A DNA stretch of 55,483 nucleotides from Bacillota bacterium. Lineage in GTDB: Bacteria > Bacillota > Negativicutes > Sporomusales > CTSoil-080. This document shows positions 9,473-35,408 of this stretch, piece by piece. Position 1 is the stretch's first letter. The number at the start of each line of letters is the position of its first letter. Under the pieces are notes generated by a model, which did no database searches, was not told the DNA's origin, and worked only from the letters and a program-made list of their open reading frames with translations. The stretch spans positions 1 to 55,483 of the forward strand of contig JAGGAD010000008.1 of NCBI GenBank assembly GCA_017889625.1, given 5' to 3'. Position numbers and translations under genes: made by a program.

Positions 9473-10312
9473 ATGACAATTCTTGCAATTAAAATTCTAC
9501 TTATTTCCATTTTCGCCGGCGGACTTGGTTCCATTCTGGGGCTTGGTGGAGGAATCATTGTCACCCCGGCGCTAACCTTGTTGTTTGGAATTGATATTCA
9601 ACATGCTATCGGTGCCAGTTTGATTTCGGTTATCGCCACTTCCAGTGGTGCGGCTATTGCCTATCTTCGCGACCGCATAACCAATATTCGCGTTGGTATG
9701 TTTTTAGAAATTGCTACTACGGTTGGTGCAATTACCGGAGCAATTATTAGCGGACTTATCCCACCTAGTTTATTATACATAATTTTTGGGGTGCTTTTAC
9801 TTTATTCTGCCCTTGCTATGATCAAAAAAGTAAAGCAGGAGGTACCGGGAGAAGTAGTTGCGCACAAACTTGCCCAGGTATTAAAACTACAAGGAAGCTA
9901 TTATGACAAAACCTTGCAAAAGCAAATTCCTTATAATGTCAGTAATGTATATGGCGGTTTCGGTGTCATGTATGGAGCCGGCGTAATCTCCGGACTTTTG
10001 GGAATTGGCAGTGGCAGTTTTAAGGTTATGGCGATGGATGTCTTTATGAAACTTCCTTTAAAAGTTTCCAGTGCAACCAGCAACTTTATGATGGGCGTTA
10101 CTGGTGCTGCAAGCGCAGGTATTTACTTGTTTCGCGGTGACATCCATCCTGCTACGGCAGCTCCAGTGGCTCTTGGCGTATTGATTGGCTCCACAATCGG
10201 CGCGCGAATTATGCAGCGGTTAAAGAGTAAAACAATCCGCAAATTATTTATTCCGGTATTGATTTATGTAGCATTAGAAATGATAGTTCAAGGCTTAGGG
10301 GTGAAATTTTAA
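9473..10312 (+). CDS. TauE/SafE family sulfite/anion exporter
   Basis: This 279-residue membrane protein has two homologous halves, each starting with a Gly-rich helix (GGLGSILGLGGGIIVTP near 17-33; GLLGIGSGSFKV in the second half), the hallmark of TauE/SafE permeases. Family members move sulfite, sulfoacetate or similar anions. It starts with ATG after AGGTGTAAC and overlaps DUF1634 by one base (TAATG), so the two are translationally coupled. The divergent Lrp regulator suggests control by an amino acid or related metabolite. Confidence 0.9.
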   Translation: MTILAIKILLISIFAGGLGSILGLGGGIIVTPALTLLFGIDIQHAIGASLISVIATSSGAAIAYLRDRITNIRVGMFLEIATTVGAITGAIISGLIPPSLLYIIFGVLLLYSALAMIKKVKQEVPGEVVAHKLAQVLKLQGSYYDKTLQKQIPYNVSNVYGGFGVMYGAGVISGLLGIGSGSFKVMAMDVFMKLPLKVSSATSNFMMGVTGAASAGIYLFRGDIHPATAAPVALGVLIGSTIGARIMQRLKSKTIRKLFIPVLIYVALEMIVQGLGVKF

Positions 10313-33371: not shown

Positions 33372-33400
33372 TTGCTTCTTGTGTAGTAATGGATTATAAT
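33372..33400 (+). promoter_or_regulatory. Sigma-A-type promoter of the structured RNA
   Basis: TTGCTT (33372-33377), a 17-base spacer and a perfect TATAAT (33395-33400) predict a start near 33407, about 300 bases before the cyclase gene. Confidence 0.7.
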
Positions 33401-33406
33401 GCAAGT

Positions 33407-33550
33407 AAGATATTAACAATAACTGGATATGATTGTGGGTCGCTTGTATTAAGGATCAAGAAAAAATCTTGCTCTTGAATAGTTCAAGCCCAGCTCATTA
33501 CAGTACGACAACTTAGGTTGTTGTATGGTTGTGAGCTGGGCTTTTTGTTT
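33407..33550 (+). ncRNA. Candidate small RNA or attenuated leader, about 145 nt
   Basis: The stretch starts just after a good promoter and ends in a strong terminator. A 12-bp stem (33486-33497 with 33532-33543) encloses a second 9-bp hairpin (TACGACAAC/GTTGTTGTA) and is followed by a T tract. Upstream there is a smaller repeat, CAAGA...TCTTG. It has no open frame worth noting. Either it is an independent RNA, or it is the 5' leader of the cyclase operon stopped by attenuation. I could not match it to a known riboswitch class or to 6S RNA. Confidence 0.55.
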
Positions 33551-33707
33551 TATCATGGTAGTGGCGTCGATGTTCCGGTTGATTTTAGCCTAGCGAAGAA
33601 TCAGCCGCTATTTAGATAGCATAGTTGGGAGGATTTTTTAGTAGTCAAGAAAAGCATTTTAGGGTTATAAGGTTAAAAAATTTACTAAAAGGGAGAGGAA
33701 TATTAAT

Positions 33708-35375: not shown

Positions 35376-35408
35376 GTCGCTTAAAATTTTGTTTAAGCGA
35401 CTTTTTTT
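35376..35408 (+). terminator. Terminator after the cyclase operon
   Basis: A perfect 10-bp stem (35376-35385 with 35392-35401) has a 6-base loop and is followed by seven T. Confidence 0.92.

Follow-up and report, generated by a model that had tools for sequence, protein, structure and literature searches.

A predicted transcription attenuator upstream of tandem cyclase genes belongs to an RNA family that co-occurs with one clade of DUF3870 proteins

Results

A structured leader precedes two tandem cyclase genes

The stretch of DNA analysed here (the window) comprises 55,483 nucleotides of a Bacillota bacterium (contig JAGGAD010000008.1). On its forward strand, a promoter, a structured leader and a strong terminator are followed, 154 nt after the terminator, by two tandem genes of the PF04199 cyclase family (Table 1). 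This arrangement had been described in an earlier note made from the letters alone and was confirmed by the sequence and by comparison of the fold with shuffled sequences: the transcript 33405-33552 folds with -50.9 kcal/mol (z = -6.05), and none of 200 shuffles was equally stable. Directly after the terminator hairpin lies TTTTTGTTTT.

Table 1 Features of the leader and the cyclase genes in the window
Feature	Position	Strand	Basis or remark
Sigma-A-type promoter	33372..33400	+	TTGCTT 33372-33377, 17-nt spacer, TATAAT 33395-33400; sequence and counterpart in locus L038 of a relative
Type-B attenuator element, whole	33437..33553	+	132.5 bits (model R1), 84.2 bits (model R3); 50-copy alignment A9
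P1 5' strand (GCTTG), antiterminator	33442..33446	+	covariation in alignment A9
P2 5' strand	33453..33461	+	covariation; one mismatched pair in the window copy
P2 3' strand	33467..33475	+	covariation
P1 3' strand (CAAGC)	33485..33489	+	its AAGC forms the first bases of the terminator 5' arm
Terminator 5' arm	33486..33497	+	fold and covariation
Inner hairpin within the terminator loop	33504..33525	+	33504-33512 pairs with 33517-33525; fold
Terminator 3' arm	33532..33543	+	fold and covariation
Terminator T-rich tail	33542..33551	+	sequence
Second hairpin, between terminator and cyclase gene 1	33575..33607	+	33575-33584 with 33599-33607; also in L038
Cyclase gene 1, 268 aa, PF04199	33708..34514	+	E 8.9e-34
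Cyclase gene 2, 260 aa, PF04199	34539..35321	+	E 5.7e-29; 42% identity to gene 1
Terminator-like hairpin and T run after cyclase gene 2	35376..35401	+	terminator scan; probable end of the cyclase operon

The leader was first recovered in a relative by plain BLAST (81% identity; genome G002, contig JAGGAC010000031.1, locus L038), where it lies upstream of the orthologous gene. At the equivalent position, L038 carries the promoter counterpart TTGATT-N17-TATAAT, which indicates that the window promoter is conserved. The window -35 box matches the consensus at only three of six positions, which explains why a promoter scan did not return it; the terminator scan missed the leader hairpin because its loop, which holds the inner hairpin, exceeds 8 nt. 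No U tail follows the second hairpin (CCGGTTGATT ... AATCAGCCG), which may act at the level of translation or mRNA stability. In L038, a c-di-GMP-I riboswitch (9926-10012, 76.6 bits) overlaps the start of a predicted 276-aa ORF.

The product of cyclase gene 1 is probably a metal-dependent ring-opening hydrolase and shares 30-36% identity with the four other element-linked cyclases that were aligned. The window cyclases may act as ring-opening enzymes in catabolism of the gallate, pyrogallol or phloroglucinol type. In the excerpted text of PMC10470551, the related dihydrophloroglucinol cyclohydrolase (DPGC) has Trp20 and Tyr22 where isatin hydrolase has Ile32 and Leu34.

An Rfam search gave no plausible match, in line with the earlier note, which had assigned the RNA to no known class. 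At gathering cut-offs, only a tRNA was found in the window and nothing in eight element-bearing loci, and weak matches at relaxed thresholds were implausible (for example isrJ, 25.1 against a cut-off of 37).

The leader belongs to a family of elements at unlinked loci

BLAST searches with the leader retrieved related hairpins at unlinked loci, in the gap that separates a DUF3870 gene from an MBL-fold gene (L007) or from a TctC gene (L005). A covariance model built from four copies (R1) was searched in 150 relatives and matched in 12 genomes; a renewed search of the surroundings yielded 74 matches, many of them antisense. After removal of antisense matches of the terminator palindrome, 53 sense candidates were inspected and 50 copies from 11 genomes, referred to as type-B elements, were kept: 11 in G022, the most in any genome, seven each in G000 and G002, five in G017, four in G025, three each in G001, G004, G011, G020 and G137, and one in G027. 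Excluded from these counts were the only match in G104 (L163, E 5.8e-4), judged to be a chance terminator, a copy that was too divergent (L162:14436) and a shortened one (L164, G022:C11). The last (L164 3678-3765) retains P1/P2 and the terminator 5' arm, lacks the 3' arm and is possibly a degenerate copy.

A refined model (R3), trained on the 50 copies including that of the window, scored the window leader with E = 3.5e-16, and the sole other match across the window below E = 1.6 was the antisense of the leader hairpin. Over 398 phylum genomes, R3 matched only in G000 and in Moorella sulfitireducens SLA38 (G448), which carries a single type-B element, lies outside the class and is the one positive among the 397 other phylum genomes. 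Five elements are present in Sporomusa termitida DSM 4440, and tandem complete elements were found at five loci (L146, L147, L148, L155 and L161). The earlier note had proposed a comparison upstream of homologous cyclase genes. Such a comparison finds the element at only 1 of 69 cyclase loci and would alone have missed the family.

As far as our searches show, the leader belongs to a previously undescribed RNA family of probable transcription switches in gut and soil anaerobes. No description of the type-B element was found in the literature covered, which takes in few subscription papers and includes PMC8632094, PMC6429828 and PMC12456013 in excerpt; given that coverage, an earlier description of the RNA family or its protein partner is possible. 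Regulated terminators as such are well established, as are antiterminator proteins; it is this RNA family and its candidate protein partner that appear undescribed within the searches made.

Two mutually exclusive helices covary

Conservation of the structure in relatives was assessed in a structure-blind MAFFT alignment of the 50 type-B copies (A9) and is borne out by covariation in P1 and P2 and in the terminator. For P1 and P2 together, standard pairs occupy 93.1% of cells compared to 84.7% in shuffled alignments, and 65 cells are doubly changed compared to a shuffled mean of 18.4, a value reached in none of 500 shuffles, where the controls for pair counts keep the relatedness among the sequences. 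When the partner strand was slid by one to three columns as a control, pairing was at most 48.8%. Double changes occur at all nine pairs of P2 and at two of the five pairs of P1; P2 is weaker in the window than in the family consensus. For the terminator, pairing reaches 97.6% of cells and the doubly changed cells number 14, again a value that no shuffle out of 500 attained.

Three alignment columns as scored (65-67) belong both to the 3' strand of P1 and to the 5' arm of the terminator; in the window, the shared bases are 33486-33489. Since both helices use these bases, only one of the two folds can form at a time. Every one of the 50 copies has a terminator segment of greater stability than its antiterminator segment (medians -31.2 and -13.4 kcal/mol, respectively), which suggests that termination is the default and that read-through needs a stabilised P1/P2. 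The element combines what defines an attenuator, namely a U-tailed terminator upstream of a gene and a terminator-excluding helix with covariation. We infer from the exclusive helices and their relative stabilities that the type-B leader is a regulated terminator that is off by default.

Type-B elements precede catabolic genes

Downstream of 49 of the 50 copies, an ORF of 90 aa or longer begins on the same strand at a distance of no more than 420 nt; on the opposite side this holds for 14 of 50. Many copies lie within operons, between genes. The downstream genes, which were assigned partly by sequence similarity and partly by eye, encode PF04199 cyclases, an AhtL-like molybdenum enzyme (with the PF21423 pyrogallol-hydroxytransferase domain) and other molybdenum enzymes, BKACE and SDR proteins, 3-hydroxyacyl-CoA dehydrogenase, thiolase, phosphobutyryltransferase- and butyrate-kinase-like proteins and MtaA/URO-D methyltransferases. 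In addition, there are genes for MFS, SSF, TctC and TRAP transporters, a chemoreceptor, MoaA and MoaC-MobB. Judged by their sequences, these genes point to a putative regulon for anaerobic catabolism of phenols of the gallate, pyrogallol and phloroglucinol type. Sensing of the molybdenum cofactor was considered for the MoaA and MoaC-MobB targets and set aside, because several other targets (TctC, MFS, cyclase and methyltransferase) work without molybdenum. The type-B element at L152 (678-797) stands before the gene of a 497-aa protein that is predicted to be secreted and resembles surface-layer proteins, an odd target for a catabolic regulon.

The gene set resembles the phloroglucinol cluster of Clostridium scatologenes as described in the available portion of PMC10470551, which comprises the cyclase-family DPGC, the BKACE-type TAL, the 3-hydroxyacyl-CoA dehydrogenase TfD, thiolase and butyrate kinase, and whose expression rises 4.2- to 5.7-fold with phloroglucinol. 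Unlike for the type-B regulon, that portion of the account has a transcriptional regulator and mentions no RNA leader (PMC10470551).

Clade B of DUF3870 co-occurs with type-B elements

DUF3870 (PF12986) is encoded in 63 of the 150 relatives. An alignment of element-adjacent members (A10) separates a clade B of 18 genes, which score 136-177 bits, from all others (next best 70.7 bits). Clade-B genes are present in exactly the 11 genomes with type-B elements (11/11) and in none of the 139 others. The two are distributed patchily together: of nine genomes in genus g8, four have both and five have neither, and family f3 with six genomes is split three to three. Thirteen of the 18 genes lie within 300 nt of a type-B element, two more end an element-led operon (G017:C2 and G027:C1), and three have no full element nearby. 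At two of these three exceptions (L235 and L237), a shortened type-B-like hairpin, AGGCAGGCCTGGCTC..., follows just after the DUF3870-B gene and precedes a methylmalonyl-CoA-mutase-like gene; it is possibly a decayed or overlapping element. In Moorella sulfitireducens, the gene order is DUF3870-B, element, molybdenum enzyme, FeS subunit and TRAP transporter, and in Sporomusa termitida the plasmid NZ_CP036260.1 carries, after the element, genes for a sodium:solute symporter, a GntR regulator and DUF3870-B. The window genome has three clade-B copies, on contigs C59 and C106, and no DUF3870 gene near the window locus itself.

When 18 DUF3870 members were compared with Pfam, all 18 matched PF12986 only, with neither a CAT domain nor another RNA-binding family among the matches. 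No relation to HutP was detectable (hhalign probability 0.4%), and a profile search of PDB chains found no solved structure for DUF3870. The literature mentions of DUF3870 and of PF12986 amount to one paper each, on a Bacteroides lipoprotein; in the part available of PMC4387736 (2015), PF12986 is assigned to a beta-rich domain of that lipoprotein. The DUF3870 profile matched no PDB chain of the kind described there, and the family meant in that paper may be a different one.

Other DUF3870 clades adjoin different attenuators

Two other DUF3870 clades have different attenuators, types A and D, directly downstream in a layout like that of type B. The type-A motif reads GCTGCTTTGTTTAT ... TAAATAAAATCCAGCA ... 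TGCTGGATTTTTT, its P1 covaries (11 sequences), and it precedes genes for dipeptide epimerase, M20 peptidase, MurI and D-aminoacylase, named by eye from sequence. The type-A model (R2) gave 33 matches at E<=1e-6 over the 150 genomes, one of them antisense. Among the 32 sense matches, 24 lie directly downstream of a same-strand DUF3870 gene; setting aside the 11 training loci, the figure is 13 of 21. The eight exceptions include leaders of dipeptide-epimerase genes and of predicted secreted or peptide-binding proteins. Type-A elements are present in G003, G018 and G023 without a clade-A DUF3870 (clade judged by sequence or bit score) and in G064 without a DUF3870 of any clade, which implies that in these genomes another protein serves or none is needed.

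The type-D motif, TTATCTATTGGT ... TACCGAGATAGATAAGACC, gave nine matches in 7 of 150 genomes, with a pattern defined from six of these matches so that three are independent; the reversed control pattern gave none. All nine adjoin DUF3870, eight downstream of the gene and one upstream. A tree of 77 DUF3870 sequences keeps the 21 A, 11 B and 8 D labels in different clades, although it was a quick one based on few columns and leaves many forks unresolved. A further clade (C, 24 of 77 sequences) is not directly followed by an attenuator. Among the DUF3870 sequences of this attenuator-free kind, a clade marked by SGYAKLPTGITASE... (L215, L216, L218, L221, L223, L224, L230-L234 and L245-L247), mostly has TauE-like permease or MiaB-like genes next downstream.

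Discussion

Protein-dependent antitermination and its alternatives

The reading we favour, with a confidence somewhat above even, is protein-dependent antitermination, in which clade-B DUF3870 would stabilise P1/P2 of the type-B attenuator and thereby give read-through. By default, the nascent RNA would fold into the strong terminator and transcription would end before the cyclase genes. Once stabilised, P1 carrying P2 would take the first bases of the terminator 5' arm, and RNA polymerase would read through into the cyclase genes. The stabilising factor would be a clade-B DUF3870, supplied in trans from contigs C59 and C106, that binds the hairpin of P1, internal loop and P2; the trigger is probably an aromatic growth substrate or intermediate of the gallate, pyrogallol or phloroglucinol type. 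The window copy would be a trans target of the regulon for anaerobic phenol degradation.

The next best reading is a metabolite riboswitch, in which the hairpin of P1, internal loop and P2 would serve as the receptor for a phenolic or ring-opened intermediate and so block the terminator, DUF3870 being a co-regulated accessory. The element is compact and strongly conserved and has its own promoter, it serves a large common regulon with up to 11 copies in one genome, and its tandem copies recall an arrangement known from riboswitches. It is mainly the type-A elements without a clade-A DUF3870 that keep this reading a tangible, if doubtful, possibility. Against it, each of three RNA types would need its own clade within a single protein family, and an aptamer would be expected to have a larger binding core. 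We rank a strict riboswitch second because the protein clade co-occurs perfectly with type B in the 150 genomes, again in Moorella, and usually adjoins it. The label of riboswitch given earlier therefore stands as a possible case of ligand binding by RNA alone, behind a protein-dependent switch.

A different trans factor, protein or RNA, might drive the switch with DUF3870 as a metabolic partner only. DUF3870 has no known activity and its clade C has no adjacent element, as this would allow; we nevertheless hold it to be unlikely, as DUF3870 genes directly precede three attenuator types before unrelated targets (dipeptide epimerase, MurI, D-aminoacylase, SHMT-like, TctC and cyclases). Of the two options that the earlier note had left side by side, a stand-alone small RNA or an attenuating leader, the leader is upheld by the covariation of exclusive helices and by the downstream genes. 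A small RNA ending at its own terminator would fit the promoter and the terminated transcript of about 140 nt; it is very improbable in view of the same-strand gene in 49 of 50 copies compared to 14 on the other side and of the many copies inside operons. Least credible is a plain terminator that belongs to the region upstream and owes its further structure to chance; this reading would account for the strong hairpin and is already contradicted by covariation of P1 and P2 outside it and by conservation at unlinked loci.

Extending protein-dependent antitermination to the whole family, we regard it as an evenly balanced proposition that the widespread DUF3870 proteins of Firmicutes are RNA-binding transcription antiterminators, whose clades read private hairpin codes (A, B and D) and control different catabolic regulons; type B would then serve RNA-level induction by plant phenols in strict anaerobes, with the window element as a trans target. 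This would provide a first functional hypothesis for the large DUF3870 family and a possible account of how anaerobes switch on polyphenol and tannin breakdown, with relevance for soil carbon and gut metabolism. As several candidate RNA-protein pairs with different codes are found in one genome, their specificity is directly testable, and Sporomusa termitida DSM 4440 offers a cultured host.

Comparison with known systems

In the hut operon of Bacillus subtilis, the gene of the small regulator HutP is followed by a regulated terminator and the catabolic genes, and read-through depends on the inducer. The DUF3870 gene directly upstream of a regulated terminator in types A, B and D follows the same layout, although not at the window locus; in contrast, DUF3870 shows no detectable sequence relation to HutP (PF09021), and type B has many unlinked target copies. 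HutP itself is present in 45 of 60 relatives, in up to four copies and as separate genes, and HutP-family paralogs and DUF3870 genes are some 2 kb apart in G007:C7, G006:C13 and G012:C7. Reliance on protein antiterminators in these anaerobes may be much greater than currently recognised.

The RAT of LicT, SacY and BglG is a short, protein-stabilised hairpin that contains asymmetric internal loops and shares the bases of its 3' side with the terminator 5' arm. The type-B antiterminator hairpin overlaps the terminator in the same way; however, its RNA sequence is different, DUF3870 has no CAT RNA-binding domain, and the regulons concern catabolism of phenols, peptides and amino acids rather than PTS sugars. 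With riboswitches that terminate unless a ligand is bound, type B has in common the mutual exclusion of antiterminator and terminator, the tandem copies and a catabolic regulon, whereas it differs from them in matching no Rfam family and in being linked to a protein clade.
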